From assembly GCA_026710905.1 (NCBI GenBank), contig JAPOQD010000068.1, positions 1 through 64,000 on the forward strand: a stretch of 64,000 nucleotides of DNA, read 5' to 3'. Each line of letters opens with the position of its first letter. The stretch's first letter is position 1. The notes beneath the pieces were generated by a model. The model saw only the letters and a program-made list of their open reading frames with translations, had not been told where the DNA came from and ran no database searches. A program made the position numbers and the translations under genes. Source of the DNA: Halieaceae bacterium (GTDB taxonomy: Bacteria > Pseudomonadota > Gammaproteobacteria > Pseudomonadales > Halieaceae). Below, one piece after another: positions 12,127 through 47,303 of the stretch.

Positions 12127-12138
12127 TGGTCAGAGCGC

Positions 12139-13658: not shown

Positions 13659-13682
13659 AGTTTTCTCTCCTGTACTTAAGAT

Positions 13683-21463: not shown

Positions 21464-21516
21464 GTCAGCTTCTCCTCGCGACGCGGTGTATCTATATTTA
21501 ACGTGTATTCGGTGAT

Positions 21517-22753: not shown

Positions 22754-22756
22754 CTG

Positions 22757-23746: not shown

Positions 23747-23754
23747 TGCGTCTT

Positions 23755-24699: not shown

Positions 24700-24731
24700 A
24701 CTATGTCTCCTGATTAATCTCTAAACTGATG

Positions 24732-25634: not shown

Positions 25635-25637
25635 GGT

Positions 25638-26657: not shown

Positions 26658-27562
26658 TGTGGTTTCTCAGCTTGTTTGGTCGTTGATTGTGTGCGGATGG
26701 AATCCAGCATTGCATCCAGGGACTCTTCTTCCAGTGCCGCTGCAAACTGCGGCGCCCAGGCCTGGCGCTGTACGCAGCCCTCACTCATCCAGGGCGTGTA
26801 TCCGGCCTCTTCTACCGTCCTGGCGACCTCGCGCATCTCCGCGGCCCGGCGCTCGCCATGCTGGAGTGAGCGCGAAATCAGGTAGCGGGCCTGCTCTGTC
26901 CAATCCTGCCCCGGGAACAGATTTTCCAGTGACGCCAGCACAGTCGCTTCGACACCATAGTGACGAGCGCTCAGCAGAGACTCGGCGACCAGCGCCTCCA
27001 TGCCCTTGATAATCACACTGCGGCACATCTTGGTGGCAGCAGCCACGCCGGGAGAGTCAGAGGCCACCTGCACATTGCTGAAGCATAGCTGACTGCTGAG
27101 ATCGGCGAATCCCGCCGCACGGCGACCGGACACCAGAACGGGCGAGGCTGAACGCCGCGGCATGATCGGGGACATAACCGCCGCCTCAACAAAGCAGCCC
27201 CCGGCGCTTTCAATCACTTCACAGATGCTGTGCTTGGTTCCCGGCGACACCGAGTTGAGGTCCACATAAATGGTATCCTGCGCCAGGCCCGGAAGAATCG
27301 ATTCAGCCGCACTGCTGGCCTCATCGGCAGTGACAGCAGACAGCATTACCTGGCAGCCCTGGGCGGCTTGTGCTGCACTCGACGCGACGCCGATCCGCGA
27401 ACCCGTCCCCAGTTCGGCAAGATTGTGCGCAGCCACGCTGGCATCGTTATCGAACTGGTAATCCCAGACGCGCACGCCCAGCGTGGTCTGCTCAAGCAGG
27501 TCCTCCACCAGGATACGGCCCACTTCGCCGAGCCCTATAATGCCAACGCAATCCATCTTCAC
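26654..27562 (-). CDS. NAD(P)-binding dehydrogenase with DUF1932 C-terminal domain
   Basis: A 302-residue protein with a 6-phosphogluconate-dehydrogenase-like N-terminus (VGIIGLGEVGRILVEDLLEQ), the substrate-side AAVMSPIMPRRSASPVLVSG, and a helical C-terminal DUF1932-like domain with the conserved CRSVIIKGMEALVAESL. It overlaps both neighbours by 4 bases, so it is a true operon member. No defined step of the 4,5-cleavage pathway needs it. It could oxidise or reduce a side product. Confidence 0.8.
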   Translation of the reverse strand: MKMDCVGIIGLGEVGRILVEDLLEQTTLGVRVWDYQFDNDASVAAHNLAELGTGSRIGVASSAAQAAQGCQVMLSAVTADEASSAAESILPGLAQDTIYVDLNSVSPGTKHSICEVIESAGGCFVEAAVMSPIMPRRSASPVLVSGRRAAGFADLSSQLCFSNVQVASDSPGVAAATKMCRSVIIKGMEALVAESLLSARHYGVEATVLASLENLFPGQDWTEQARYLISRSLQHGERRAAEMREVARTVEEAGYTPWMSEGCVQRQAWAPQFAAALEEESLDAMLDSIRTQSTTKQAEKPQ

Positions 27563-28656
27563 GCCGGGCCACCGTTGTCGCGCGGCACCAGCACCTCGCC
27601 GCGCATCAGCAGCCTCGCCGTGCGCAGCAGCGCTGCCCGCTTTACCTGCAAGCCCGCCGTACCCGGGGCACTGTCAACTTCCATCTCCACGGTGAAGAAT
27701 CCGGTGGGATGCTCTACCTCCAGGGTCAGTCGTCCACTGCCGGGTTGCTCTCCAGCCACCTGCCAGGCAATGGACCCGGGCATCACGCAGGCGGTTGCCA
27801 CGCTGACAGACCCCAGAACGCCGATCGCCTCGTGCACTCGATGGGGAATAAAAGTGCGGGTATTGATGTCTCCTCCTGCAACCGGGGCTGAGACCAGGCA
27901 CATTTTGGGGACTGTTTTTTTGCTGACATCACCCAGTCCCATCATCGGGCCGGCCGCCATGCGGATATCCTCCACCCGGCCTTTGAGGTCATTGTTTGCT
28001 TCCAGTTCGGCGGGTGTTTCAGTACCACTCAATCCAAAATCTTGTGCCTTCAGCAGCACCACGGGCATACCATTGTCTATGCAGGTCACCTGTACGCCGT
28101 TGATTGTGTCACTCACCTTGCCAGTAGGCAGCAACGCACCGCAGCTGGAGCCGGCGATATCGAGGAAGTCAATTGGCACCGGAGCCGCAGTGCCGGGAAC
28201 CCCGTCAATGCGTGCATCGCCCTGGTAGCTAACTTTACCTTGCGGCGTCTGCACCCGGGCCACAGCGCGGGCGCCGGTATTGACCATGCGGATTCGTACA
28301 TCGGTTATATCATCCTGCGCCGCCACCAGGCCCCGTTCAACGGCAAAGGGGCCGACTCCCGCAAGAATATTGCCGCAATTCTGCGCATCGGATACCTCGG
28401 CGCGATCCACGAAGACCTGCAGGAACAGGTAGTCCACATCACTGTCCGGGTCCTCAGAAGCACTGATAACCGCTACCTTGCTGGTCAGCGGGTGGGCACC
28501 GCCCATGCCGTCGACCTGCCTGGTATCCGGTGACCCCATCGCTGCCAGCAGGACTCGATTACGTTCCTCCTCCGCCACCGGGAGGTCAGAGGCGAGGAAG
28601 TACAGTCCCTTGGACGTACCTCCTCGCATGACCATACAGGGGATCGCAGCTTGCAT
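27559..28656 (-). CDS. ligU: 4-Oxalomesaconate tautomerase (PrpF/LigU family)
   Basis: A 365-residue diaminopimelate-epimerase-fold isomerase of the PrpF group. It starts AIPCMVMRGGTSKGLYFLAS and has the conserved QVDGMGGAHPLTSKVA and CGNILAGVGPFAVE. In this operon it should interconvert the keto and enol forms of 4-oxalomesaconate, as GalD or LigU do. It lies 3 bases from ligK and overlaps the DUF1932 gene. Confidence 0.87.
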   Translation of the reverse strand: MQAAIPCMVMRGGTSKGLYFLASDLPVAEEERNRVLLAAMGSPDTRQVDGMGGAHPLTSKVAVISASEDPDSDVDYLFLQVFVDRAEVSDAQNCGNILAGVGPFAVERGLVAAQDDITDVRIRMVNTGARAVARVQTPQGKVSYQGDARIDGVPGTAAPVPIDFLDIAGSSCGALLPTGKVSDTINGVQVTCIDNGMPVVLLKAQDFGLSGTETPAELEANNDLKGRVEDIRMAAGPMMGLGDVSKKTVPKMCLVSAPVAGGDINTRTFIPHRVHEAIGVLGSVSVATACVMPGSIAWQVAGEQPGSGRLTLEVEHPTGFFTVEMEVDSAPGTAGLQVKRAALLRTARLLMRGEVLVPRDNGGPA

Positions 28657-28659
28657 GGA

Positions 28660-29349
28660 TCAGATGTCCTGTAACGTCTTCACGTAGCGCAGGCCCTTTT
28701 CTGCCAATCGCTCGCGCATATTGTAGATATCGAGGCCGAGTTCGCCGCTGGCAAGACGCTCCCGCTTTGCTTCTTCGTTGGCGAGCCGCTGGGCCATTTT
28801 GACCTGGACGTCTTCTGCCTCTTCTCTGCGTACCACCACAACGCCGTCGTCATCAGCGACGATCAGGTCTCCCGGGTTTACCAGAGCACCGGCACAGACG
28901 ATGGGCACATTGACATTACAGACCGTTTCCTTAACGCAGCCCTGGCCGTGCACAGCCCTGGACCAGACCGGAAACTTCATCTCGGTGAGGGTGGCGATGT
29001 CGCGCACACCGGCATCAATGACCAGGCCCAGCACACCGCGGGCCTTGAGCGATGTGGCCAGCAGGTCGCCGAAGAAACCGTCGGTGCAGGGGCTGGTAGG
29101 GGTGACCACGAGAATATCACCGGGACGGCACTGCTCTACCGCAACATGCAGCATCCAGTTGTCGTTGGGTGCCACTTCGCAGGTGACCGCCGTTCCGGCG
29201 ATAGCAGCCGGACGGTAGATCGGCCGCATATGGCTGGCCAGCAGCCCCTTGCGGCCTTGGGCCTCGTGAACGGTGGCAGATTCAGCACCTTCGTACAGGG
29301 CAACGGTTTCTTCCGCTGCACGTTCAATGTCTGTCACACAAACAGGCAT
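28660..29349 (-). CDS. ligK: 4-Carboxy-4-hydroxy-2-oxoadipate aldolase
   Basis: A 229-residue RraA-like class II aldolase giving pyruvate and oxaloacetate, the last step of the pathway. It has [20 protein letters not shown] near the N-terminus, [20 protein letters not shown] and [11 protein letters not shown]. The ATG at 29349 (GAGAG upstream) matches the start of known LigK; an in-frame GTG at 29382 would add 11 residues. It is the promoter-proximal gene of the lig operon. Confidence 0.9.
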
Positions 29350-29474
29350 GGTCAAGCTCTCACTGGATTGCACAGGTTTCACAGCATACTAGCCGCACCC
29401 CGGTTTGGGATGTTCAATTGTTGCCATGAGGTATTAATTTTTACTATAGTGGAAAACACCAGCGAGGTATCAAC
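29350..29474. promoter_or_regulatory. Divergent promoter region, lig operon and LysR gene
   Basis: A 125-base spacer between ligK (leftward) and the tandem-HTH LysR gene (rightward). It contains the palindrome actatagt at 29443-29450 flanked by ttttt and ggaaaa, a plausible LysR-type operator overlapping both promoters. Confidence 0.5.
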
Positions 29475-30670: not shown

Positions 30671-32897
<2,227 letters not shown>

Positions 32898-32917
<20 letters not shown>

Positions 32918-34667
32918 AAGGCGGCCTCAGTGTCACCTGATTAGCTGCAGCGTAACGATCCCAGGCAGCAATGAGCTTCTCAAGCACTTGCGGATGTTTG
33001 TCGGCGAGGTCATGTTGCTCGCCGGCATCATCAGCGAGATTGTAAAGGCGCCATTTTACACCCGCTGCGCCCGTGCCTGGGTCGCTGCGAAAGCGGGGGC
33101 TCATACTCGCATAAACCGCTTTCCAGTCACCAATGCGCACGCCCCGTCGAAAGAACAGCTCCCAGGCCAGAATACGCTGGGCAACATTCACAGTATCTGC
33201 GTGCTCACCGATCAAATCAGCCCAGGAGATACCGGCCGTTTCATCATCTGCCTGGGTATCCCCACCAGCATCAACACCGGTCAGCTCCAGCAGGGTCGGC
33301 AGCACGTCGCGGGCAGAGAGCGGCTGACGCTCTACCAAACCCGCGGCAATGCCAGGCCCGGAGATAATGGCCGGTGCGCGCACACCACCTTCATACGTGG
33401 AGCTTTTGAAGCGGCTAAAGGCGCCAGCACCAGCCTGGGCCCAGGCCGGCCCATAAGTATAAAAGCTACCTGCTCTGCCGAGCGTGTCGGGATTGTTATT
33501 GAGACGAGGGAAGGCATCGCGCGCGTCATCAGGTACACCCATCGCCTTGATCAGGTACGCGAGGCTTTGTTTAGTCTGCCCCTCAGCACCATTATCTGAC
33601 ATGAAAAGAACAATGGTGTTATCCAGTTCACCGCGATCCTCCAGTGCCTGAAGAATACGCCCAACGTTCTGATCCAGGTTATCCACCATAGCCGCGTAGA
33701 CTTCCATCCCCCGGGAGGCAACAGCCCGCGCGTTCTCATCAAGAGACTCCCATTCGGCGGCATCAGGTGAAGGGGCCGTTAGCGCATCCTCGATGACAAT
33801 ACCATGCGTCTGCATCGCCTTGAGGCGCGAACGGTGCAAAGCCGCGGGGCCATCAGAATAACGCCCCTTGTATTTATCAATCACATCATCCGGGGCCTGC
33901 ATGGGCCAGTGCGGTGCAGTGAAGGCGAGGTAGGCGAAAAACGGGCGCCCGCCACGCTCCTCGGCGTTCAGATACTCAAGCATCCTCGAGGTATAGAAAT
34001 CGCTGCTGTATTTTCCGACCGGGAAGCGTGCCGGTGCGCCATCTTCACGATAGGAGGCCGCTGGTCGGCCCTTCTGACCTGGCTCCGCCTGGTAAGCCCC
34101 AAAATGGTCTGCACCTCCCTGCAGCAATACAAAGGAGCGCTCGAACCCGCGGGCGCTGGGGTCGTGTTCAGGACGCATTCCCAGATGCCACTTTCCCGTC
34201 ATGGCGGTCATATAGCCCGCCCCCGCAAAAAGCTCTGCCAGCGTCTTGACGCCGGGATCGAGATGGCCCGTGTAACCCGGAGCCTTGCGCATGAACGGAG
34301 ATGCGTGGAGCGCTTCGGCCATGGTGCCCAGTCCAACCGCGTGAGGATCACGACCAGTCAGCAGCATGGCCCGTGTCGGAGAACAAGTAGGCGCCGTGTA
34401 GAAGCTGGTCAGCTTCACCCCCTTCTGCGCAAGCCGGTCCAGGTTCGGAGTTTCAATCTCGCCGCCGTAAGCCCCGAGGTCGGTGTGAGCGAGATCATCC
34501 GCCAGGATCAGGAGAACATTAGGACGTTTTTTGCACTCGGTGGCCCAACTAGCGCCCGGCTGCAACAAAGCCAGCACCAGTAGCATGGCGAGAATCGCGA
34601 AGGAATTCGCTGGCACGCTGTGGCCGGTAGCGAATAGCGGTAAACCTCTGAGTACACTCAAATCCAT
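32898..34667 (-). CDS. Exported arylsulfatase
   Basis: A 589-residue type I sulfatase. The signal peptide ends near GASWA, then the metal-binding LILADDLAHTDLGAYGG and the formylglycine motif CSPTR in TCSPTRAMLLTGRDPHAVG, with GKWHLG and the later LFMSDNGAEG. The active-site Cys must be converted by a formylglycine-generating enzyme or anaerobic maturase, not seen here. The start at 34667 has AAAGGAGGC upstream. It ends the seven-gene leftward operon. It should release sulfate from an aryl sulfate ester in the periplasm. Confidence 0.9.
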
Positions 34668-34752
34668 AGCTGCCTCCTTTAAACGCGACATGTGGGCCTG
34701 GGAATGCGGCTAATATTGACCCACTCTGGTCGCCAATTCTTACGATTTGCGT

Positions 34753-35544
34753 CTATCCCGGTAGCGCCTTCATATGAGGCCATGCCACTGAGCCTGATTC
34801 GTTCATCAACTGGATGTAAGACGGGTTGCTCCAATCGCGTACGCCTACCGTGTAAGCCTGACTGGCTCGCAGCTGGGCCAGCCACTGGTTCAGCTGCGGA
34901 TATGCCTCCCACCAACCGGATAGCTGCAACTGCTCCAGGCGCTCGATATAGGGTAGCATCGCAAAGTCCGCCAGGCTGATCTTTCCGCCTACCAGCCACT
35001 CGCTATCTGCCAGCGCTGCAGCCATATCGCTAATGAGTTTTTTATAAGCCAGGGCCGCCAAACGGAGCCGCGGTGACTCCAGACCGTTTGTCACAATATC
35101 CTCCATGACGGCGCGACGGGAAGGGTCGGAAATCTGGGAAAAAAAACCTTGCAACGATTCGCTCGTGGTATGGCGTTGCAACAGTTGATGGCGAAATGCC
35201 ACGCAAAAACTGATAACAGCCAACTGCTCATGCAAGCCGGCGTCGAGTCGGATTAACCAACCCCGGGTCTGCGCTCGCTCCACCGCATCCAGGGACAGCA
35301 GAGGCGAGTCGGGAAAGACCTCGTCCAGGTACTGGACGATCGCATTCGATTCGAGAATGACTTCATCATCATGAACCAGGACAGGAACCAGGCCCTTGGG
35401 GCTGATTCTCAGGAAATCCGGGGAAAATTGCTCCGCCGCTCGCAAGTTCAGGTTGCTCCCTTCCCAATCCAGCTCTTTGTGTGCCAATACCATGCGTACT
35501 TTCTGGGCACAGACTGACATGTCGTTATGGTACAGATACAACAT
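34753..35544 (-). CDS. Glutathione S-transferase family protein
   Basis: A 263-residue protein: thioredoxin-like N-terminal domain (YLYHNDMSVCAQKVRMVLA, SPKGLVPVLVHDDEVI, LESNAIVQYLDEVFP) and helical C-terminal domain (ISLADFAMLPYIERL). The SVCAQK turn is where Ser- or Cys-type GSTs bind glutathione. It may be a glutathione-dependent isomerase or ether-cleaving enzyme for a pathway intermediate, judging from its place between the sulfatase and the monooxygenase; beta-etherases of lignin degraders are one related group. Confidence 0.82.
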   Translation of the reverse strand: MLYLYHNDMSVCAQKVRMVLAHKELDWEGSNLNLRAAEQFSPDFLRISPKGLVPVLVHDDEVILESNAIVQYLDEVFPDSPLLSLDAVERAQTRGWLIRLDAGLHEQLAVISFCVAFRHQLLQRHTTSESLQGFFSQISDPSRRAVMEDIVTNGLESPRLRLAALAYKKLISDMAAALADSEWLVGGKISLADFAMLPYIERLEQLQLSGWWEAYPQLNQWLAQLRASQAYTVGVRDWSNPSYIQLMNESGSVAWPHMKALPG

Positions 35545-35600
35545 AATTTTAGCCTGCTGCTGTGGACCCGGAATCGACCGCCAGGCGGGCCAGCCTGTGA

Positions 35601-36731
35601 TTAAATGGGCTGAGCCAGGGCCTGCATTGACTCTCGCATAATATTGGCGTGTTCCTGTTTATCACCGCCTTCAATTTCGATCTGGCCAAGGCGGCCTGAG
35701 TTCTCTACGACCATGCGGCAACGCTCCCAGCGACGCTGTTGAAAAGCATCCAGGGCGCCCTCAAGCGTATCGCGGTCCGCCAACTCTTCCGCCAGCACGA
35801 TGGCATCCTCAATGCCAATACATGCGCCAGACGCCAGATGAGGTGTGGTGGCATGTACCGTGTCGCCGATCAGCACGACACGACCACGAAACCAGGGCAG
35901 AGGTACAAGTAATCCTTCCAACGGCCTGAGCAGGACCTGTGACGTTTCATCCAGTTGGTCGCGCAATACCTGCACAAGCGGTGCGGGAAACGTGCTCAAC
36001 AAGTCTTTAAGCCGGGGAACCAACTCTTCCTCCGGAACACGCTCTTTCACCTTCTTGTCTTCCGTCAGGAACAAATACACCTGGTCCTTCGACATCGGGT
36101 TAATGCCTGCTTTAAGGTGTGGCCCCACCCACATCATGGTGTTTTCTGCCTCTGGTGGGCGCGGCAATACGGCTCGCCAAACCCCCTGCCCGCTATATCC
36201 CGGCTTGGGTGCATCGGGCAGCAGCCATTCTCGTGTTTTCGAGTAGAGCCCGTCAGCACCAATCACCAGGTCAAAGCGATCGCTGCTACCATCTTCGAAG
36301 GTAACGGTTACACCGTCGTCGTCCTGATCAATACTGCTATAGGAATAGCCCAGCCTTACCTTCGCACCCGCCTCTACCACTTTCAGGGACAGGATCCTGG
36401 CAAGAACGGGCCGCATGATAGCACCACCACCGGGCACATCAGCGCCAGCGACGGGCGGATTGGGTATCGTCTGGAGTAGTTGCCCGGTAGGAGCGATAAT
36501 CTCAAGCGCTTCTTGAACGCTGCCCTGATCAAGGAACTCTTCCAGTACACCCAGGTTGGCGAAGGCACGTAAGGTTGCGCCGCCGACACTAATACCAGCG
36601 CCATCGGCCCGCCAGTCGGGGTTAATCTCCAGCAAGTGCGTTTCAACGCCCTGCTCGCAAAGCTTGATGGCTGCGGACATACCCGAAAAACCACCGCCGA
36701 TAATCAAAACTTTTTTAACTGAAGCACTCAT
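35601..36731 (-). CDS. FAD-dependent aromatic ring monooxygenase
   Basis: A 376-residue salicylate-hydroxylase-like flavoprotein with VLIIGGGFSGMSAAIKL, the DG motif LVIGADGLYSKTREWL and GDTVHATTPHLASGACIGIE. It should hydroxylate a phenolic ring using NAD(P)H and oxygen. In GDTVHA, Thr and Val replace the commoner Ala-Ala. The start at 36731 follows a G-rich ribosome binding site. It is co-transcribed with a Rieske ferredoxin and an extradiol dioxygenase, which fits a hydroxylation step before ring cleavage. Confidence 0.87.
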   Translation of the reverse strand: MSASVKKVLIIGGGFSGMSAAIKLCEQGVETHLLEINPDWRADGAGISVGGATLRAFANLGVLEEFLDQGSVQEALEIIAPTGQLLQTIPNPPVAGADVPGGGAIMRPVLARILSLKVVEAGAKVRLGYSYSSIDQDDDGVTVTFEDGSSDRFDLVIGADGLYSKTREWLLPDAPKPGYSGQGVWRAVLPRPPEAENTMMWVGPHLKAGINPMSKDQVYLFLTEDKKVKERVPEEELVPRLKDLLSTFPAPLVQVLRDQLDETSQVLLRPLEGLLVPLPWFRGRVVLIGDTVHATTPHLASGACIGIEDAIVLAEELADRDTLEGALDAFQQRRWERCRMVVENSGRLGQIEIEGGDKQEHANIMRESMQALAQPI

Positions 36732-36752
36732 GGGCTTCCCCCCCAATCAGAG

Positions 36753-37082
36753 TTATGAATCGAGTTCTGCCGTCACATAACCATCGTTACTGACATGAAG
36801 CGTCACTGCCGTTAGCGACTGTCCCAGACATGGCCCGGAGATGCACTTTCTGGACTCGATATCGAAACGTGCACCATGTGCCGCACATACGATGACTTCA
36901 CCGGCCCTATCCAGGTACTCGTCTTTTTTCCAGGGCAATTGGGTATTACCGTAATGCGGACACAGGTCCCTGTATGCATACAAAGCAGAGTCTTTTTTCA
37001 CTACAAATACGCTGGGCCGCCCATTCCCTAATGGATCAAACCCGGTCGCACGCCGTTCCGAAAGCTCGTCAAGGTGACACAT
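36753..37082 (-). CDS. Rieske [2Fe-2S] ferredoxin
   Basis: A 109-residue single-domain Rieske protein. The cluster ligands are in DLCPHYGN and VCAAHGARFD (CxH and CxxH). The start at 37082 is chosen because GTGAGG lies 5 bases upstream; a longer frame would overlap the dioxygenase gene. Such proteins normally feed ring-hydroxylating dioxygenases, but no oxygenase alpha subunit is next to it. It could serve the P450 at 41456, reactivate the extradiol enzyme as XylT-type ferredoxins do, or belong to an oxygenase elsewhere. Confidence 0.85.
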   Translation of the reverse strand: MCHLDELSERRATGFDPLGNGRPSVFVVKKDSALYAYRDLCPHYGNTQLPWKKDEYLDRAGEVIVCAAHGARFDIESRKCISGPCLGQSLTAVTLHVSNDGYVTAELDS

Positions 37083-37150
37083 TTTGACCTCACTTTGAGA
37101 CTCTATAGGCGGGATAACATCACTCCCTGGAACATCATTGTCCAAAACAA

Positions 37151-38080
37151 TCAGTTCTTCCCGGGAGGCGGCCCCATGGGGGCCCACTTTTCTCGATACT
37201 CCATCAGGAACACCTGCGAATTATCAGCCGCCATACCCGCTTCTCGAGCAGTCCAGCTATCGTCGTGCAGATCCATATCCGCGTCGTATTCCATATTGCA
37301 GCCCAGCGGGCTCTTGAAATACCAGAACCAGTTTGATCCAAAAATGTGACGGCCAGGCCCCCAGAAACTCTGGTAGCCCTTATTCACCATATTGGTTCCG
37401 GCCTGCATAACGTCGCTGGGGCCGGTCATGTGAAAAGTAAAATGCTCGCAGCCTTGCATATGGGGTGGTGTTTGGATCATGAACATTGTGTGATGATCCT
37501 GTGTACCGGCTGGACGCATAAAGGGACCGACATTGGTGAAGCGATCTGTCGTTACAAATCCCAGACGCTCTGTGTAGAAAGCCTCTCCTTTAGCGAAGTC
37601 AGGCACAAAATAAACCACGTGGGAAAGACTAACCGGCTTGGGCTGTGCTTCTGTATTGACGGCTACATCGTTTATCGGCCGCCGATCCGATGACCCCGGA
37701 AGGTTAGTCTTTAGCGCGGGCAGCGACAGCTCTTTCCTTACGGTAACCTGGAAACCCAGCACAAAGCCCAGGTCATCCACTGTCTCCAGGGAACCGTCAT
37801 CGAGCTTGCTGACTTCACGGTCTTTGTTCAATTCTTCCGCAATCGCATCGAGCGCTTCCTGATCAGCAACACCATAGACCGTCTTCCGCAACATGCTGCC
37901 GGTTTCCAGTGCGGGAGGCAGGGATCGATCATCCCTCTCGGCAATCATGACCGCTGTACCATCCAAAGCTTCAAAGCGACCATTACCCGCGTCATCCAGT
38001 CCATAGTCCAGAAGGAATTGCTTACAGGCTTCAACATCGTCTACACCAAAAATCAGCGCATCGGGTCCAACAATATTCAT
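37151..38080 (-). CDS. Type I extradiol (VOC-family) ring-cleavage dioxygenase
   Basis: A 309-residue two-domain vicinal-oxygen-chelate protein. The C-terminal domain has the three expected iron ligands: His in LSHVVYFV, His in CEHFTFHM and Glu in GCNMEYDAD. The N-terminal domain is the degenerate half usual for the family. The second of two close ATGs is taken (38080) because GAGGAG is then 6 bases upstream. With the hydrolase before it and the monooxygenase after it, it likely meta-cleaves a dihydroxy-aromatic made by this operon; the substrate is not predictable by eye. Confidence 0.82.
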   Translation of the reverse strand: MNIVGPDALIFGVDDVEACKQFLLDYGLDDAGNGRFEALDGTAVMIAERDDRSLPPALETGSMLRKTVYGVADQEALDAIAEELNKDREVSKLDDGSLETVDDLGFVLGFQVTVRKELSLPALKTNLPGSSDRRPINDVAVNTEAQPKPVSLSHVVYFVPDFAKGEAFYTERLGFVTTDRFTNVGPFMRPAGTQDHHTMFMIQTPPHMQGCEHFTFHMTGPSDVMQAGTNMVNKGYQSFWGPGRHIFGSNWFWYFKSPLGCNMEYDADMDLHDDSWTAREAGMAADNSQVFLMEYREKWAPMGPPPGKN

Positions 38081-38090
38081 GTTCATCTCC

Positions 38091-39254
38091 TCAAGATTGT
38101 GCGAGTCGGCCGCCCAGGGTTTCTGCAACCCAATCGGCAATGTAGTGTCCAGCGTTAATGCTGTTATCAAAGCTTGAATGCTGCACTCCGCCTTCACGCT
38201 CGGTAAATATCTTTAATTCCCGTTTGGGGCTATTGACCAGTTGCTCATACGTACGCTCTGCCCACTTGAGCGGAATTTGTGAGTCTTTTTCGCCATGCGT
38301 AACCAAAAATGGCACCTTGATTTTCTCGACCACACCATCGAGATGCACGTCCTCAGCAATCTTCATGAAGTCATCAATATCTTTGGCACCCCAGACCCAG
38401 CAAACATGCGCCCAATAGTGGGGCACGGGGAAGTCACCCTCATTTTCCAGGCGACGTTTTTGCACATCGCGCCAATCATGATTAGCGCCCCAGCAAACAC
38501 CGCAGGCAAAACGCGTTTCAAAGGCCACAGCGCGCGGGCAAAAATAGCCGCCCAGAGACACGCCTTCCATGCCAATGCGTTTGCCATCGACATCGTCGCG
38601 TGTCTCCAGCCAATCAACCACAGGGCTTGCCCAGTGCTCCGAGTCGTAGCGCGCGGTCAAACCTTGCAGTCGCAGGGCCTCACCAGTACCGGGTTGATCA
38701 ATAATAAGTGACGACACGCCCCGTTTAGCCAGCCATGCAGGCAGGCCAACGCGATACTTCATTTCCTTGGTTGAATCCAGGCCATTCACTTGCACTAACA
38801 GTGGCGCAGGCCCAGTAACATTCTCAGCCTGCACCAACAAGCCGGAAATATGCTTTCCTCCATAAGGAATCTCTACTCGTTCACAGTTTTCACCTGCGAG
38901 GCGCGTGCCCTTTTCGAACAAGTCCAACATACGTTTATACAGATCCAGTCGGTTGGGCGCATTGTGAGCCTGGAGACGCTCGCAGGTAAGCAGATAGGAA
39001 GCGGCACGACCGTACTTTTCGCCTGCTGAGAGCAAACGTCCCCTGGCTTCATCTTCTTTCGCCAACTCGCACAACTGATCGGCCATCTTTTCCCATGTAT
39101 CACGAAAGGCCTGGGTTCCCTCCGCATCGGGCTTTTTGGCGACCTCCTGAAGCGGTGCGCATATGGCTTCAATTTCGCCAATTCGCGCGCCCATCTCGAT
39201 AGCCAGGTCGACTGACAGGTTCCATACATAATTTGTTGGAAAGTATTTAAACAT
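38091..39254 (-). CDS. Alpha/beta hydrolase (dihydroxypseudooxynicotine hydrolase-like)
   Basis: A 387-residue hydrolase with an N-terminal helical cap (residues 1 to about 130) and an alpha/beta core: VNGLDSTKEM, nucleophile elbow GVSLGGYF, the Asp region THGEKDSQIP and the catalytic His in GGVQHSSFD. It resembles C-C bond hydrolases of the 2,6-dihydroxypseudooxynicotine hydrolase / FrsA group, which cut a carbon side chain from a ring. Beside an extradiol dioxygenase it probably cleaves the ring-fission product or a preceding aryl ketone. Confidence 0.83.
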   Translation of the reverse strand: MFKYFPTNYVWNLSVDLAIEMGARIGEIEAICAPLQEVAKKPDAEGTQAFRDTWEKMADQLCELAKEDEARGRLLSAGEKYGRAASYLLTCERLQAHNAPNRLDLYKRMLDLFEKGTRLAGENCERVEIPYGGKHISGLLVQAENVTGPAPLLVQVNGLDSTKEMKYRVGLPAWLAKRGVSSLIIDQPGTGEALRLQGLTARYDSEHWASPVVDWLETRDDVDGKRIGMEGVSLGGYFCPRAVAFETRFACGVCWGANHDWRDVQKRRLENEGDFPVPHYWAHVCWVWGAKDIDDFMKIAEDVHLDGVVEKIKVPFLVTHGEKDSQIPLKWAERTYEQLVNSPKRELKIFTEREGGVQHSSFDNSINAGHYIADWVAETLGGRLAQS

Positions 39255-39283
39255 TCAAATTCTCCAGACTGACAACTGCTTGA

Positions 39284-40255
39284 TTAAAATCGATCCAGAT
39301 CGCTGGCGATGAAAAAATCACCGTCAAACTTGGACCGAACGCGCTTCGTGTAGTAGTCGACTTCTGAAGATTCCAGCATGGCCGGGGCCAGGTGTGTAGC
39401 GACCAGCTTTTTCACTTTGGCACGCGTCGCCATCTCGCCCACTTGCTCGGGAGTGACGTGGTGTGCAGTCAGGTGAGACCTCATATTCGCAAGTGCTTTC
39501 TCGGGCATATTCGGATTTGCGCGGCTCACCGCTTCCACCGTCTTATCAATATCCATCATCTCGCTCACCAGGAGATCAGCGTTTTGCGCCAGTTTCTCAA
39601 CGGCACCACTGGGACCGGTATCACCTGTGTAAACGATCGAACTGTTCGGCAACTCGAATTTGAAGGCAAACGATTGGAACTTTTTCCACTCGTCACTGCC
39701 CTCAGGCCAGCTGTAGTGCGTATTCCTCACAGCGGTTAGCGTGAAGTCGCCTGTATCTATTGTTGATCCGTCCTCCAGTTCTACCACCTCAACCTGGTAG
39801 TTTGCGGGCTTGGGGGTTTGACCAGGAACGCCGTAGGCCCCTAAAGCCCCGTACTCCATGAAGGCGAATATGCCTTCTACCGTGTCGCGAGTTCCGGGCG
39901 GACCGTATATCGTGATCGGCTCACGGGCTGATGTTTGCCAGCGCAGAGCCAGAATGGCGGGAATACCCCCAGTGTGATCAAAGTGCAGGTGACTGATAAA
40001 GATTGCGCGTACAGCTTTATGGGAATACCCAGCCGAGGCAAGACGACCAGCCGTACCGTCGCCAGCATCAGCAAGGTAAACGTTACCATTAACAACAAGC
40101 GCGTTCGCGGGCTGGGAGCGCACGGCATCTGGAATCGGCCCCGCACTGGTGCCCAGTGTAATCCATTCATTGGCTGGGCTCAGGTTTTCCGCATTCAAAG
40201 GATATGAGGCGGCCATCATTATCATGACCAGTCCCAATAGACGCAAAAACTTCAT
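39284..40255 (-). CDS. Exported metallo-beta-lactamase-fold hydrolase
   Basis: A 323-residue MBL-fold protein with a signal peptide (hydrophobic to about residue 23, cleaved near LNAEN). Metal motifs are SHLHFDHTGG (HxHxDH), NTHYSWP, VYTGDTGPSG, and LVATHLAP. It resembles the ribonuclease-Z/arylsulfatase-like MBL group, so a periplasmic lactonase, esterase or alkyl/aryl sulfatase role is possible. The start is the second ATG (40255), 9 bases after AAAAGGAG. It is the first gene of the leftward operon divergent from the LysR gene. Confidence 0.82.
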   Translation of the reverse strand: MKFLRLLGLVMIMMAASYPLNAENLSPANEWITLGTSAGPIPDAVRSQPANALVVNGNVYLADAGDGTAGRLASAGYSHKAVRAIFISHLHFDHTGGIPAILALRWQTSAREPITIYGPPGTRDTVEGIFAFMEYGALGAYGVPGQTPKPANYQVEVVELEDGSTIDTGDFTLTAVRNTHYSWPEGSDEWKKFQSFAFKFELPNSSIVYTGDTGPSGAVEKLAQNADLLVSEMMDIDKTVEAVSRANPNMPEKALANMRSHLTAHHVTPEQVGEMATRAKVKKLVATHLAPAMLESSEVDYYTKRVRSKFDGDFFIASDLDRF

Positions 40256-40350
40256 AACCATCTCCTTTTATGTCTCTCGTTGCCAATCAACAGCGTACGT
40301 TAAAGCCATCCGAGGTTCGTTATTAGATCGAGTAGATCATGTCACTTGAC

Positions 40351-40409
40351 TATAAATAAGAAAAATTGTTTATATTGATTCGATTTCATATGATTTATTT
40401 ATAGGAATT
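40351..40409. promoter_or_regulatory. AT-rich operator region between the MBL gene and the LysR gene
   Basis: tataaata (40351-40358) and tatttata (40396-40403) form an inverted repeat. The right half lies within tcatatgatttatttatagg (40386-40405), which reappears almost unchanged downstream of the LysR gene at 41325. It is the likely binding region of the LysR regulator for itself and the divergent operon. Confidence 0.55.
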
Positions 40410-40412
40410 GCC

Positions 40413-41312
40413 ATGCGATTTAAGACTCTGGACCTGAATCTGCTGGTGGCGCTGGACGCCCTGCTGGATGAGCAAAGCGTCACTCGCGCCGCTGAACGTG
40501 TCAACGTCAGCCAGCCTGCGATGAGTGCCGCGCTGTCTCGCCTGCGTGAGCACCTCAACGAACCCCTGTTCATACAGCACGGCAAAAGCATGGTTCCAAC
40601 AGCAGCAGCCCTTAGAATGAAAGAGCCGCTCAAGGCACTATTGCAGGGCATTGACATCCTGGTGACCGAGGGAAGCCATTTCGACCCAACCACCTCCCAA
40701 CGGCGTTTTCGGATCGCGACCTCGGACTACCTGCTGGCAGTGTTATTTCCCGCTTTAACTCACCGGCTGGGCCGGGACGCACCCGGTGTCACCATGGACT
40801 GTGTTCAGCCCTCTGAGCTAACGCAGCCATTACTGGACCAGGGCGAACTGGACCTGTTTATCGGCCCGGAGGGACATATCTCCCCTGATCATCCGACTGA
40901 ACTTCTTTTTGAAGAAAAGTATGTCGTAGTGGGATGGGCAAAGAACCCTGTTTTGAAACATCGGAGCATCAGCGAGGAGGATTTCTACAAGGCCGGGCAT
41001 GTGGTGGTGGAAATCGGCCGACAATCTCGTACTTCTTTTGCGGAGGCCCATCTTCTGCAGTCCAAACGGAAGCGGCAGATCGATATGCGCTTCTCCTCTT
41101 TTCTCATTGCCCCTGAGATGGTGGTCAATACGATGAAGCTAACAGTGATGCACGAGCGACTCGCAAAAATGTATGCGAAACGGCTGGATATAGCAATCTC
41201 GCCGCTACCCTTCGAGTTTCCAGTAATGCGTGAGTTGGTCCAATACCAGCACTCTCGCCAGAACGACGATGGCCTGCGTTGGTTCATAGAGCAGCTGAAG
41301 CAGTCGGGTTGA
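40413..41312 (+). CDS. LysR-type transcriptional regulator (NodD/NahR-like)
   Basis: A 299-residue regulator: winged HTH at residues 6-65 (SVTRAAERVNVSQPAMSAAL, LNEPLFIQHG) and a substrate-binding domain. It is closest by eye to the NodD/NahR/SyrM branch, which responds to aromatic effectors. It lies between two divergently placed catabolic gene sets, with a shared AT-rich element before itself and before the P450 gene, so it probably controls both. Confidence 0.87.
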   Translation: MRFKTLDLNLLVALDALLDEQSVTRAAERVNVSQPAMSAALSRLREHLNEPLFIQHGKSMVPTAAALRMKEPLKALLQGIDILVTEGSHFDPTTSQRRFRIATSDYLLAVLFPALTHRLGRDAPGVTMDCVQPSELTQPLLDQGELDLFIGPEGHISPDHPTELLFEEKYVVVGWAKNPVLKHRSISEEDFYKAGHVVVEIGRQSRTSFAEAHLLQSKRKRQIDMRFSSFLIAPEMVVNTMKLTVMHERLAKMYAKRLDIAISPLPFEFPVMRELVQYQHSRQNDDGLRWFIEQLKQSG

Positions 41313-42658: not shown

Positions 42659-43438
42659 ATGCCTCGCACATTTATCGACCTGTCTATTTACCTCGAAAAC
42701 GATGTCATCACAGATCCGCCTTTTATGCGCCCCAAGATCACCTACCAGAACCATGCGGAAACGGTAGCAGAGGCAAATCACTTCTTCCCGGGCGTGAGCG
42801 CCGAGCAGTTCCCCGGTAGTGAGGGTTTCGCGGCAGCAGAAACGGTTGAGCTGACGACCCACAACGGTACCCATCTCGATGCTCCCTGGCACTTTCACCC
42901 GACAATGGACGGCGGCGAGCGCGCTATCACCATTGATGAGGTACCGCTGGACTGGTGCTTCCGACCCGGGGTAAAACTCGATTTTCGTCACTTCGACAAC
43001 GGTTATGTGGTCACCGCGGCTGATGTTGAAGCAGAGTTGGAGCGCATCGGCTACACCCTGCAACCAATGGATATCGTACTGGTAAACACCGCCGCCGGCA
43101 TGGCTGTGGGCAATCCTGATTTTGTCAATATTGGCTGTGGTATGGGTTACGAAGCCACGATGTACCTGCTCGATCGCGGCGTCCGCGTCACCGGCACGGA
43201 TGCCTGGTCATGGGATGCCCCCTTCAGCTATACCGCCAAGCGGGTTGAAGAAAGTGGTGATACCTCGCTGATCTGGGAAGGTCACAAGGCGGGTCGTGAT
43301 ACCGGCTACTGCCACCTGGAGAAGTTACACAACCTCGAGGCACTACCCCCCTTCGGCTATACCGTTGCCTGCTTTCCGCACAAGGTGAAAGGTGGATCCG
43401 CCGGCTGGACCCGCGCGGTGGCGATAATCGAGGAATGA
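42659..43438 (+). CDS. Cyclase-family (kynurenine formamidase / isatin hydrolase-like) hydrolase
   Basis: A 259-residue protein with the metal motif THNGTHLDAPWHFHPT typical of the family (HxGTHxDxPxH) and IGCGMGYEATMYLL, TGTDAWSWDAP later. Family members hydrolyse N-formylkynurenine, isatin or cyclic imides/lactones. It starts 9 bases after the P450 stop, in the same operon, followed by a ruined epimerase and an FAA hydrolase. The actual substrate is unknown; an activated lactone or amide is plausible. Confidence 0.85.
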   Translation: MPRTFIDLSIYLENDVITDPPFMRPKITYQNHAETVAEANHFFPGVSAEQFPGSEGFAAAETVELTTHNGTHLDAPWHFHPTMDGGERAITIDEVPLDWCFRPGVKLDFRHFDNGYVVTAADVEAELERIGYTLQPMDIVLVNTAAGMAVGNPDFVNIGCGMGYEATMYLLDRGVRVTGTDAWSWDAPFSYTAKRVEESGDTSLIWEGHKAGRDTGYCHLEKLHNLEALPPFGYTVACFPHKVKGGSAGWTRAVAIIEE

Positions 43439-43445
43439 CATCGAC

Positions 43446-43905
43446 GTGAGGGTCATTGTCACCGGCGCAAACGGCTTTATTGGCCGCGCTTTCGTGGAGG
43501 CCCTGCTGGCAGCGAATGAGCATGAGGTTGTCGCAGTGGATACGGTGGCCCCGTCCTCACCCGGACCGGATGGCGCCAGGTGGGTCTGCGCTGACATCTG
43601 CGATCCCGGCGCAAAAACTCATGGCAGAGAACTGGATTGCAGCTCTGACACCGGGTACTTACGAGTTGCCCGCTTCCTTAGCAGTCGCCCTGCCCGGGTT
43701 GCGCGTCTCCATGCAGGATCTTGCCAGGGCGATTGTTCACCATGCCGACTGTCCGGAGAACTTCGTCCGCTATGCGCCGGATGCAAACCTGGAGGCGGCA
43801 TTCGGAAATCTGCGAGATCACCAGTTCCGCTGCGCTACGCGTCTGGGATTTTGCGACGATGGCGACCTTGATCGGCTGGTCGCCAGCGGATTTTCAACCC
43901 TATAA
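43446..43905 (+). pseudogene. NAD-dependent epimerase/dehydratase with its middle deleted
   Basis: The first 48 codons are a normal Rossmann start (MRVIVTGANGFIGRAFVEAL, with WVCADICDPG). The remaining sequence continues in another frame as ALPGLRVSMQDLARAIVHHA and ends TRLGFCDDGDLDRLVASGF, the C-terminus expected for D-erythronate-dehydrogenase-like members of the family. About 190 residues, including the YxxxK active site, are missing. This is the same end-plus-end scar seen in the CoA ligase and Rieske oxygenase. Confidence 0.72.
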
Positions 43906-43925: not shown

Positions 43926-44894
43926 ATGAAACTAGCATCAATTGACGATGGAAGCAGGGACGGTAGCCTGGTCGTTGTTTCCCAGCAGGGCCACTATATT
44001 TCCGCCAGCGACATTGCACCGAGCATGCAGGCGGCTCTCGAAAATTGGTCGGAGTTTGCGCCTTCGATGACCAGGCGTTCAAAGCAACTGGAACAGGGTG
44101 GCGGAATGAACAGCGAGGGTGTGACCTTCCTCGCTCCCCTGCCCCGTGCCTGGCAGTGGCTGGACGGCTCGGCTTTCAAAAGCCACGGTGACCTCATGGA
44201 AAAAGTCTTCGGTATCGACCCGGTCCCAATGGATAAACCGCTGATGTACCAGGGCATGTCACACCATTTTCTTTCCGCCACAGAAGATGTGGAATTTCTT
44301 CGTGCGGAGGATGACATCGATTTCGAGGGCGAATTTGGCATAGTCACCGACGATGTACCCATGGGCATCAGCGCTGCAGCGGCAATGAATCACATCAAGC
44401 TGATTGTGCAAATCAATGACTGGTCTTTGAGAAGACTGGCGCCGGCCGAAATGAAAACCGGATTTGGCTGGATCCAAGCCAAACCGACGTGCTCAATGGC
44501 GCCTTTTGCCGTCACCCCTGACGAGCTGGGCGATGCCTGGCAGAACGGTCGTGTCCATCTGCCACTGACGGTAGATTGGAACGGTGAGCGCTTCGGCAAC
44601 GCACACGCGGGGGTCATGGACGTAGGATTTCACGAACTGATTGCTCATGCCGCAGCCACTCGCGATCTCTGCGCGGGCACGGTGATCGGTTCAGGCACTG
44701 TGTCGAACGACAATTTTCGTGAAATCGGCTCTTCCTGCATCGCCGAGCGGCGCGGCATCGAAATTGTCGATGAAGGCGCACCGACAACCCGCTTTATGCA
44801 ATTCGGGGATCGCGTGCGGATGGAGGCGATCTGCGAGGATGGCAGCTCCCCATTTGGTGCCATCGATCAGCGTGTCACCAAAAGAGAGACATAA
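43926..44894 (+). CDS. Fumarylacetoacetate hydrolase family protein
   Basis: A 322-residue FAH-fold hydrolase. Metal ligands are in DFEGEFGIV (ExE) and QINDWSLRR (Asp). The conserved GSGTVSND appears near residue 260. The family hydrolyses 1,3-diketo acids such as fumarylpyruvate, or decarboxylates/tautomerises muconate derivatives. With a GST that could be a maleylpyruvate-type isomerase and a cupin remnant, the set resembles a gentisate-like or related cleavage branch, but this is only an inference. Confidence 0.86.
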   Translation: MKLASIDDGSRDGSLVVVSQQGHYISASDIAPSMQAALENWSEFAPSMTRRSKQLEQGGGMNSEGVTFLAPLPRAWQWLDGSAFKSHGDLMEKVFGIDPVPMDKPLMYQGMSHHFLSATEDVEFLRAEDDIDFEGEFGIVTDDVPMGISAAAAMNHIKLIVQINDWSLRRLAPAEMKTGFGWIQAKPTCSMAPFAVTPDELGDAWQNGRVHLPLTVDWNGERFGNAHAGVMDVGFHELIAHAAATRDLCAGTVIGSGTVSNDNFREIGSSCIAERRGIEIVDEGAPTTRFMQFGDRVRMEAICEDGSSPFGAIDQRVTKRET

Positions 44895-44895
44895 C

Positions 44896-45018
44896 ATGGC
44901 TGATCCGGTTCGGCGGGTAGTTACTGGTCACGACGACAACGCGCGTGCGGTCTTCCACTCGGACGAGGCCTTCGCACCACAAAACAACGGCAATGAACTA
45001 CCGGAGGTTCAACCATGA
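44896..45018 (+). pseudogene. Cupin-family protein, N-terminal fragment
   Basis: Forty codons begin MADPVRRVVTGHDDNARAVF, the start common to a group of small cupin proteins found in aromatic gene clusters ('DPVRRVVTGHD'). The barrel itself is missing, and the frame stops inside the start codon of the next GST (ATGA overlap at 45015). The truncation kept the ribosome binding site of the downstream gene (CCGGAGG). Confidence 0.55.
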
Positions 45019-45728
45019 CGGACATTACGCTTTACGCCGCTCCGGGCTCCTGCTCGCGAGTACCGTGCATCGCACTGGAAGAAATCGGCTTACCCTTCGA
45101 ATACCGACCCATCGTGTTTATGAAGGGCGAGCACAAGGGCCCGGATTACAAGAAGCTCAACCCCAAGGGAAAAGTCCCCTGCCTGGTGATAGACGGCGAG
45201 CCGCTGACCGAGAATGTCGCCATTCTAAGCTACCTCAACTCGCGATTTCCAGAAGCAGGCCTGCTGCCAGCCGCAGCGAACGAACTGGAGCGCATGCGCC
45301 AGATAGCCGATCTTTGTTTTTGTTCCGCGACGCTGCATCCGATAGTCACCCGTATTCGCATGCCCCAGTTCTTCGCCGCACCGGACGCGGCTCGGGGTGT
45401 ATTTGACGCGGGCTGCGAAGCCATGCACGAGTATTTCCAGCTTGTCGAAGACCGCCTTGCTCACGACCTATGGTGGTATGGCGATACCTGGAGTGCGATG
45501 GATGGCTATCTCAACTGGATTTTCTGGCGGGTGGGAGGCGCGAATTTCCCCACTGCCGACTACCCCCGTTTTAACGACCATGCCGTGCGTGTCGAACAGC
45601 GACCGGCTGTGCAGCGTGCGCTGGCACGGGAACAGGCGGCCCAGGCTGAACTGGAAGCAAAAGGACTGGCATTCAAACCGCCACCTCTGCCAGATGCCCA
45701 GGCTGTGACTAAAAGTAAATTATCGTAG
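45015..45728 (+). CDS. Glutathione S-transferase family protein
   Basis: A 237-residue GST. The N-terminal thioredoxin-like domain has YAAPGSCSRVPCIALEEIGL (Ser-type active site), NPKGKVPCLVIDGEPLTENV and ILSYLNSRFPEAG; the C-terminal domain is helical with a charged tail. It is closer to bacterial beta/theta GSTs and pathway isomerases than to stress GSTs. CCGGAGG lies upstream. It follows the FAA hydrolase and cupin remnant, so a cis-trans isomerase role in ring-cleavage product metabolism is plausible. Confidence 0.84.
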   Translation: MTDITLYAAPGSCSRVPCIALEEIGLPFEYRPIVFMKGEHKGPDYKKLNPKGKVPCLVIDGEPLTENVAILSYLNSRFPEAGLLPAAANELERMRQIADLCFCSATLHPIVTRIRMPQFFAAPDAARGVFDAGCEAMHEYFQLVEDRLAHDLWWYGDTWSAMDGYLNWIFWRVGGANFPTADYPRFNDHAVRVEQRPAVQRALAREQAAQAELEAKGLAFKPPPLPDAQAVTKSKLS

Positions 45729-45803
45729 ATAACGATCGTAACAACTCAGGGTGATGAACGTGGTTCCGAAAAACCCGATAAAAAGCATACATTGGTGAGA
45801 AAA

Positions 45804-46991
45804 ATGAACGGTAATGTTTCTGATCAGCTGAATACAAACGCAGCGTCTACAACGCAGGGCGTCGTACTTATGCTTGCCGCGGTGTTGCCGGTAATGGCGG
45901 TGGTGTCTTTGGTCCCGGTATTACCTCTGCTGTTACAGGAGTTCGCCGACGTTGAAGGCAGTGAATTTCTTGTCCCTATTGCGATAACGGTTCCCGCACT
46001 TTGTGTGGCTATTTTTTCGCCGCTGGCAGGATGGATATCGGATAGAGTCGGGCGTAAGAATCTGTTGCTCGGTGCGTTCATTGCTTACGCAGCGATAGGC
46101 GTACTGCCCTATTTCCTCGCGGATCTCAGACACATCATTGCTTCAAGAGTTTTTTTGGGCGTGGCAGAGGCGACTATCATGACGGTTGCTACCGCCCTGA
46201 TTGGAGACTATTTCGATGGCGAACGCCGCGAAAAGTGGGTGGCAATACAAGTCGGCGTTGCCAGTATTTCGGCTATTATATTGATAGCTATTGGCGGCAT
46301 TCTGGGCGAAACCCTGGGTTCCCGAGGGCCTTTCCTGCTCTACCTCCTGGCACTGCCCATCATGCTGGTGAGTGCCATCGTTTTGTTTGAGCCCGCTGTA
46401 CACGAGGACACTGAATTCGCACATCTTGAGGGCTTCCCGTTCAGGCAGGTATTGCCTCTGATCGCTATTACGCTCGGGGTATCGCTGCTTTTCTACACCA
46501 TCATCGTCAAATTGGGTCCCATCCTGATGCTGACGACTGTTGTGACGCCGGCCCTCATTGGCGCTGCTGGTGCGGCGGCAAACATGGGCCATGTCGGCGG
46601 TGCGATTCTATTTGGCCGGTTCAAGAGCGCTTCAGGACCTACGCTGTTGACGGCCGGTCTTGCACTCGCTGCTTCGGGATATTTCGGCCTGAGCCTCAGC
46701 GGAAGTCTCTACGTCAGTATCGCCAGTGTTGTATGTGCAAGTTTAGGGGTGGGCATCATGTTGCCCACACTATTGGCCTGGACGATGGGAATTTTGCCTC
46801 CGGTTTTTCGCGGACGGGGTACCGGTATATGGACAGGCACCTTCTTCCTTGGCCAGTTTTTCGCGCCGATTATAGCCGTCCCTTTGGAAGGCGCATTCGG
46901 TGGACTGGATAGTCTGTTGGCGGTCTATGGTGGACTTGCGCTGATCGGCGCTGTGCTTGCTTTCATAGTAGCGAGAAAGCAAGGGCACTGA
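45804..46991 (+). CDS. Major facilitator superfamily transporter
   Basis: A 395-residue, 12-helix inner-membrane carrier. It shows the loop motif LAGWISDRVGRKNLL after helix 2 and GVASISAIILIAIGG in helix 5. It is not of the AAHS signature type seen at 18679. Its operon position suggests import of the aromatic substrate delivered by the downstream TonB receptor, or export of a product. The ATG at 45804 follows GGTGAG; TTG and GTG codons upstream are less likely. Confidence 0.85.
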   Translation: MNGNVSDQLNTNAASTTQGVVLMLAAVLPVMAVVSLVPVLPLLLQEFADVEGSEFLVPIAITVPALCVAIFSPLAGWISDRVGRKNLLLGAFIAYAAIGVLPYFLADLRHIIASRVFLGVAEATIMTVATALIGDYFDGERREKWVAIQVGVASISAIILIAIGGILGETLGSRGPFLLYLLALPIMLVSAIVLFEPAVHEDTEFAHLEGFPFRQVLPLIAITLGVSLLFYTIIVKLGPILMLTTVVTPALIGAAGAAANMGHVGGAILFGRFKSASGPTLLTAGLALAASGYFGLSLSGSLYVSIASVVCASLGVGIMLPTLLAWTMGILPPVFRGRGTGIWTGTFFLGQFFAPIIAVPLEGAFGGLDSLLAVYGGLALIGAVLAFIVARKQGH

Positions 46992-47303
46992 GAAAACACT
47001 TCAAATTGCAGCGCCAATGGCCCAGGGGTTATCTGTATATTTCGAGTTACTGGAAAATTGGCAGCACCGGAGATCAACACAAAATTGAGAAACGAGATGA
47101 CGCTCAGGCAGCGCAGCAGCAGGCCAATACCCGGAAGCAATGACACCATGGCACACCAATATCTCCTGCGACGGCACAGTCTAATCATACATTTTTATTA
47201 TGATAATTGATAAAAAAAATCAATTTTACCAATACGACGATAGGCGCTAAAGTGCACCCAACAATCAGCGTATATGCCACACATAAATATAAGGAGATTC
47301 TCC
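46992..47303. promoter_or_regulatory. Spacer before the second TonB receptor, with an inverted repeat
   Basis: A 312-base spacer. aattgat (47205-47211) and atcaatt (47219-47225) surround seven As, a possible operator or promoter-proximal element. A minus-strand frame (47149-46979) begins with a hydrophobic signal-like stretch, but I do not trust it as a gene. Confidence 0.35.

Follow-up and report, generated by a model that had tools for sequence, protein, structure and literature searches.

The naringenin/flavonoid operon fde of Herbaspirillum seropedicae SmR1 and its relatives are among the closest described counterparts of the locus reported here. 8-Hydroxylation by FdeE (Hsero_1007) and ring cleavage by FdeC (Hsero_1005) have been demonstrated (PMC10755750), FdeE has FdeD as its Rieske partner (PMC8552027), and its activity correlates with free 5-OH and 7-OH groups (PMC11303751). 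The available part of the description of the ifc genes of Variovorax sp. V35 likewise includes a flavin monooxygenase (FMO) that is an 8-hydroxylase, a VOC dioxygenase, a hydrolase resembling that of 2,6-dihydroxypseudooxynicotine (DHPON) and a cupin; IfcA is isoflavone-specific and just 36% identical to FdeE, and that part mentions no sulfatases (PMC11069340). The same order of chemistry (FMO, extradiol dioxygenase, hydrolase) is found in hcdABC of Pseudomonas mandelii 7HK4, three genes whose hydrolase acts on a semialdehyde; the accessible portion of that report describes no Rieske protein, cyclase or sulfatases (PMC6222606). Here we analyze a 64,000-nt stretch of DNA from a Halieaceae bacterium (contig JAPOQD010000068.1, positions 1 to 64,000; the window), in which a leftward seven-gene operon is, as far as sequence can tell, almost certainly an fde-type operon for flavonoid A-ring cleavage. 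Its core appears to be that of a known pathway, and the combination of this core with two arylsulfatases appears to be new.

The fde operon was compared through the corresponding loci of H. huttiense (L112) and H. aquaticum (L113), whose identity as fde rests on gene order, protein families and genus. In L112, a LysR gene diverges from a string encoding Phenol_MetA_deg, hydrolase, VOC, Rieske, FMO, major facilitator superfamily (MFS), cyclase, cupin, fumarylacetoacetate hydrolase (FAH) and epimerase proteins; this corresponds to fdeA to fdeJ with a divergent regulator, in an order that fits the published fde genes. The window shares with it FdeB, C, D, E, G and I, the divergent LysR gene and the FMO-Rieske-VOC-hydrolase core, with contiguous FdeB-C-D-E orthologues ordered as in Herbaspirillum. 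It differs in that the locus gave no match to fdeA, only remnants of fdeH and fdeJ are present, FdeF is replaced by a different MFS transporter, the genes form two divergent operons, and there are additional S4 and S1_4 arylsulfatases, two glutathione S-transferases (GSTs), a cytochrome P450 and a TonB receptor. Taking into account the identities of six window proteins to Herbaspirillum FdeB, C, D, E, G and I (Table 1) and the clade in which the FMO falls, we therefore assign the core to the known pathway.

A preliminary description of this DNA had presented the seven genes as an undescribed pathway. Their reading frames are all present in the ORF list of the window and the families of all seven proteins are backed by Pfam/NCBIfam searches; the claim of novelty fails, in that dioxygenase, hydrolase, Rieske protein and FMO match the fde operon (PMC10755750, PMC8552027). 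The exact seven-gene combination, for which that description knew of no published operon, was not found in the literature searched. This is what speaks for a wholly undescribed ring-cleavage pathway, the probability of which is next to nil given that the core genes are clear fde orthologues. The description had also named nicotine or resorcinol degradation as known pathways whose match would count against it; a known pathway is indeed matched, namely fde, and the nicotine context does not hold. The window hydrolase is about 23% identical to the DHPON hydrolase of the nicotine pathway, its neighbors are fde and protocatechuate genes, and no nicotine genes were identified nearby.

The seven genes are separated by gaps of about 4–68 nt, and we infer from this layout that they would be transcribed together as one operon. 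No convincing sigma-70 promoter was found in a consensus scan of the divergent intergenic region. The search for the conserved gene set across genomes that had been suggested recovered hydrolase, VOC, Rieske and FMO genes together in 75–80 of 80 named loci; gene content and order are thus far beyond chance. Active-site residues are preserved in the VOC, Rieske, hydrolase, sulfatase and metallo-beta-lactamase (MBL) proteins.

The hydrolase is strikingly conserved, at 82–93% identity, in the 80 named loci, which come from Halieaceae, Pseudomonas, Bradyrhizobium and Burkholderiales. Its triad S233/D324/H359 is conserved, and a model of modest confidence (mean predicted local distance difference test score 70) matches DHPON hydrolase (2jbw; Foldseek E=8.9e-15) and also Wdyg1p/Ayg1p. 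The FdeB orthologue is therefore predicted to have the cap-domain alpha/beta fold with a Ser-Asp-His triad of DHPON/Ayg1-type C-C hydrolases. DHPON hydrolase and Ayg1/Wdyg1/AntI have in common with it the cap-helix fold, the triad and, presumably, beta-dicarbonyl C-C hydrolysis; at about 20–24% identity, they serve a different pathway. In the FdeC orthologue, the type I extradiol metal site H167/H210/E277 (query numbering) is invariant in 84 of 84 VOC homologues, and the Rieske ligands C76-x-H78 and C101-xx-H104 of the FdeD orthologue are kept in all 81 homologues. A quick tree, with some long branches, places the window FMO in an FdeE-like clade of 25 rows (Shimodaira–Hasegawa-like approximate likelihood ratio test, SH-aLRT, 96) together with the Herbaspirillum enzyme and apart from the Pseudomonas type. 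An isoflavone ifc identity was rejected on this placement and on the 57% identity to Herbaspirillum FdeE orthologues, IfcA being placed by its published 36%. The GST encoded after FdeE is 80% identical to its counterpart in Halioglobus (G176), 73% in NOR5-3 (G013) and 66% in a gammaproteobacterium of another family (G438).

It is very improbable that the substrate is another 1,3-dihydroxyaromatic (an alkylresorcinol, a 7-hydroxycoumarin product or an algal phloroglucinol derivative) and not a flavonoid. DHPON/Ayg1-type hydrolases, to judge by the fold match, act on various beta-dicarbonyls, and Pseudomonas combines the same hydrolase and VOC protein with a different FMO class, so that the module may accept other cores; yet the window FMO is FdeE-like and apart from that type, and FdeG and FdeI are conserved with Herbaspirillum. 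The 7-hydroxycoumarin genes hcdABC, set aside by their description alone, comprise in its available part only an FMO, an extradiol dioxygenase and a semialdehyde hydrolase (PMC6222606). For an orcinol/olivetol pathway, the olivetol literature search gave nothing, and the fde match is far closer. Among the Pseudomonas loci (L038-L111), many species combine orthologues of FdeB (about 84% identity) and FdeC (about 60%) with an FMO of a distinct class at 37–42%. The window genome itself has a further cluster (L131, G000:C164:21001-31932) with an FdeE-like FMO (55%), FAH, a cupin fragment, a TonB receptor, a GST and a VOC protein (34%), suggesting a paralogous aromatic pathway.

The first operon gene had been described as encoding a periplasmic MBL hydrolase. 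Membership of the MBL family and an export-like N-terminus stand; the protein is itself a relative of arylsulfatases, closest among solved structures to PDB entry 8gyg. It carries the motif FISHLHFDH, of the HxHxDH type, and matches RNase Z too; a role as RNase Z or beta-lactamase was rejected, as the 8gyg match reaches 416 bits and that to RNase Z 69 bits. We assign it, probably, to SulfAtlas family S4, whose members should share 30% identity or more with the founding AtsA (P28607); the 59% to 8gyg was used in the founder's stead. MBL fold, HxHxDH motif and RNase Z-like similarity are common to the window protein, Pseudoalteromonas carrageenovora AtsA and 8gyg; what sets the window gene apart is its linkage to flavonoid catabolism. 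What S4 enzymes do in vivo has been called hard to predict (PMC5066984), and our literature search found no paper on 8gyg. Distant MBL genes in the fde loci of Roseateles and Ramlibacter (33–35%) were rejected as S4, with just 30–32% identity to 8gyg and different surroundings of the metal motif. The fde operon of Ramlibacter albus (L105:6900-8738 and 11915-12847) carries a different S1 sulfatase, with a CGPSR motif, and a distant MBL protein (34%), perhaps an independent recruitment of a sulfatase.

The last gene encodes a formylglycine sulfatase with full-length homology to Pseudomonas aeruginosa AtsA (1hdh). The CSPTR, ADD, GKWHLG, PHWP and SDNG motifs align with 1hdh, and the formylglycine motif [CS]-x-P-x-R is present; PF03781 proteins occur in the genome, this family being broader than the true formylglycine-generating enzyme. 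The window enzyme differs from P. aeruginosa AtsA in its hydrophobic export-type N-terminus, which precedes the region aligned to 1hdh, and its position in an aromatic catabolic operon. Such an N-terminus can be read in the MBL protein as well, and both arylsulfatases look exported. The closest relatives of the S1 sulfatase all lie in aromatic ring-cleavage islands, in a clade (SH-aLRT 98) formed by the proteins of the window, Halioglobus G176, NOR5-3 and G063; the G063 gene accompanies an MhpA-like FMO, a hydrolase and a VOC gene. Relatives of the S1_4 (54%) and S4 (42%) enzymes also stand beside MhpA-like monooxygenase and VOC genes in L132 (G063:C130) and L141 (G045:C1), respectively, hinting that other aryl-sulfate catabolic clusters exist.

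Linkage of the sulfatases to fde was followed across genomes. In the family draw of 140 genomes, 5 have fdeB (at least 83% identity) and 6 have S4-like genes (E<=1e-40); among the 139 genomes other than that of the window, fdeB at that threshold is found in four, S4 (>200 bits) in three and both in two. In these two the genes lie no more than about 15 kb apart on a single contig (hypergeometric P ~0.002). NOR5-3 has its S4 gene about 12 kb from the hydrolase gene, the interval holding P450, cyclase, FAH, GST, TonB receptor, a broken S1 sulfatase and MFS genes; in Haliea (G072), S4 directly precedes fdeI-fdeG-fdeB-fdeC-fdeD-fdeE. Of 368 other genomes drawn evenly from the class, one (G438) has fdeB and two have S4 (P ~0.005). 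The fde cluster of G438 includes two S4 genes as well as MFS and TonB receptor genes, and has no match to fdeA. Because these P values treat the genomes, which are related, as independent and were calculated with the pattern already in view, they serve as guides only. The two S4 genes of G438 (57% and 49%; L173, G438:C9:50001-70000) are about 3 kb apart, in a locus with intact fdeH and fdeJ and two VanA-like Rieske oxygenases.

From this gene context alone we infer a sulfated flavonoid as the substrate. The operon is probably a marine fde variant extended to sulfated substrates, e.g., the flavone 7-sulfates of seagrasses, and we lean towards the sulfatases feeding flavonoid sulfates into the fde pathway. 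One flavone 7-sulfate makes up 71–93% of the flavonoids of Zostera noltii (PMC4844259), an abundance that makes it a natural candidate substrate. The TonB receptor would probably carry the flavonoid O-sulfate across the outer membrane, and the two arylsulfatases, which are of unrelated fold, would desulfate it in the periplasm, the aglycone then entering the cell. FdeE with FdeD would hydroxylate C8 of the A ring, for which a free 7-OH should be needed; IfcA rejects 7-O-methylated and 7-O-glycosylated isoflavones (PMC11069340). A 7-sulfate should block this hydroxylation and desulfation would therefore come first. FdeC would open the ring next to the hydroxyl just introduced, and the C-C bond of the resulting beta-dicarbonyl would be hydrolyzed by FdeB in a retro-Claisen reaction; a 5-hydroxyflavone, once 8-hydroxylated and opened, would leave such a beta-dicarbonyl, which suits the DHPON/Ayg1-type fold of FdeB. 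The order already proposed, from desulfation through hydroxylation and meta-cleavage to C-C hydrolysis, agrees with the evidence. Processing of the fragments would fall to FdeG, FdeI and the GSTs, and the B-ring piece could pass as 4-hydroxybenzoate/protocatechuate to the PobA gene and the protocatechuate 4,5-cleavage genes alongside the operon.

The fde core might instead take unsulfated flavonoids, the sulfatases serving other phenolic sulfates such as zosteric acid (p-coumarate sulfate), which would feed the 4-hydroxybenzoate/protocatechuate pathway. Zosteric acid occurs in Zostera (PMC4844259), the S1 gene of Halioglobus G176 lies directly after LigABC-PobA and outside the fde operon, although on the same 31 kb contig as the fde core, and a 28 kb contig of G028 unites a sulfatase with PobA and LigC-like genes. 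We consider this unlikely in view of the S4 genes directly upstream of fdeI-fdeG-fdeB-fdeC-fdeD-fdeE in G438 as well as in Haliea and of the window itself, where the two sulfatase genes form both ends of the fde operon.

The divergent operon and the B-ring genes are listed in Table 1. The preliminary description had overlooked the kinship of the MBL protein with arylsulfatases, the presence of fdeG and fdeI among the divergent genes, and the neighboring PobA and protocatechuate genes. The P450 could possibly act in O-demethylation or hydroxylation. In the fdeJ remnant only residues 1–52 and 215–304 of the NOR5-3 protein are recognizable, about 160 internal residues being gone. NOR5-3 retains both fdeH and fdeJ; because Halioglobus G176, too, has a mere scrap of fdeH, the loss is probably real and shared and not an assembly error. 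Elsewhere in the window, an aldehyde dehydrogenase ORF (20468-21631) lacks the last quarter of its profile (matching 7–333 of 461) and is possibly truncated, and a 31-aa stretch (13572-13664), 71% identical to the N-terminus of a VanA-like Rieske oxygenase of G176, is apparently a remnant.

Table 1. Coordinates of the genes and other features of the window discussed in the text.
Feature	Coordinates	Strand	Basis or remark
Protocatechuate 4,5-cleavage cluster	21517..29382	-	
LigB	21517-22437	-	
LigA	22412-22741	-	
LigC-like	23755-24699	-	
Amidohydrolases	24732-26657	-	
4-Oxalomesaconate tautomerase	27559-28656	-	
LigK	28660-29382	-	
PobA, 4-hydroxybenzoate 3-monooxygenase	30671..31879	-	TIGR02360 above cut-off
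Terminator-like hairpin and T run	32881-32865	-	Directly 3' of sulfatase gene; consensus match only
Exported formylglycine arylsulfatase, S1_4 (P. aeruginosa AtsA) type, predicted	32898..34691	-	PDB 1hdh, E=1.7e-137
GST, zeta/maiA-like	34753..35544	-	Pfam/NCBIfam; conserved position behind FdeE in Halieaceae and in G438
FdeE orthologue, group A FAD monooxygenase, flavonoid C8-hydroxylase type	35601..36731 (listed start 36746)	-	57% to Herbaspirillum FdeE orthologues
FdeD orthologue, Rieske electron carrier	36753..37082 (alternative GTG start 37187)	-	Pfam Rieske; 44% to FdeD
FdeC orthologue, VOC extradiol dioxygenase	37151..38086 (listed start 38197)	-	67% to Herbaspirillum FdeC
FdeB orthologue, alpha/beta C-C hydrolase, DHPON hydrolase/Ayg1 type	38091..39254	-	83% identity to Herbaspirillum orthologue
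Exported MBL-fold arylsulfatase, first operon gene, predicted	39284..40261	-	PDB 8gyg 'Arysulfatase', 59% over 296 aa, E=8e-124
Divergent intergenic region, arylsulfatase and LysR genes	40262..40412		151 nt between the two starts
LysR regulator, FdeR-like	40413..41312	+	35% to LysR divergent from Herbaspirillum fde operon; Pfam/NCBIfam family
Cytochrome P450	41456..42649	+	Pfam/NCBIfam; 84-92% in NOR5-3 and Halioglobus islands
FdeG orthologue, cyclase family	42659..43438	+	71% to Herbaspirillum FdeG
fdeJ remnant (epimerase)	43446..43905	+	Internal deletion and frame change
FdeI orthologue, FAH family	43926..44894	+	51% to Herbaspirillum FdeI; PF01557
fdeH (cupin) remnant, N-terminus only	44896..45018	+	About 25 aa recognizable against NOR5-3 cupin
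Second GST	45015..45728	+	
MFS transporter	45792..46991	+	NOR5-3, Haliea and G438 likewise have one next to S4
TonB-dependent receptor, candidate outer-membrane importer	47274..49784	+	80-83% in NOR5-3 and Haliea islands

Several observations weigh against the coupling of desulfation to flavonoid cleavage. Variovorax still degraded daidzein once its FdeB orthologue had been deleted, in a pathway whose pyranone-forming enzyme is unassigned (PMC11069340), and with fdeH and fdeJ decayed in the window the lower pathway may differ. The linkage counts are small, the genomes related and the test made post hoc. The S1 copy of NOR5-3 is broken, a fragment, and the MhpA-like neighbors in G045 and G063 mean that the range of S4 and S1_4 may extend to aryl sulfates in general. 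In G037 the fde core is present and neither sulfatase is matched at the cut-offs used, so the sulfatases are not essential to the core. This genome would also fit sulfatases that are sulfur-scavenging genes, or bystanders at the operon ends by chance, as would the frequency of S1_4-like sulfatases (66 of 118 relatives at E<=1e-60). We regard this explanation as quite improbable: S4 is rare (about 1–4% of genomes) yet found repeatedly in fde islands, another family included, the S1 subclade is confined to aromatic islands, and seawater is rich in sulfate (PMC5066984), which makes sulfur scavenging a weak need.

If flavonoid desulfation is indeed coupled to A-ring cleavage, this would explain the presence of sulfatases in marine fde operons, as a 7-O-sulfate would mask the hydroxyl on which 8-hydroxylases of the FdeE type appear to depend. 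The flavonoids of seagrass leaves may consist of 7-sulfates almost exclusively (PMC4844259), and no bacterial gene set for removing them turned up in our literature search. The proposal that the operon mineralizes sulfated flavonoids, that the natural role of S4, at least in these marine bacteria, is desulfation ahead of fde A-ring cleavage, and that the formylglycine sulfatase covers other positions is, in our judgment, evenly poised between right and wrong. The linkage offers a testable physiological substrate for S4, and by means of this operon bacteria of the sea probably use the sulfated flavonoids of seagrasses as food.

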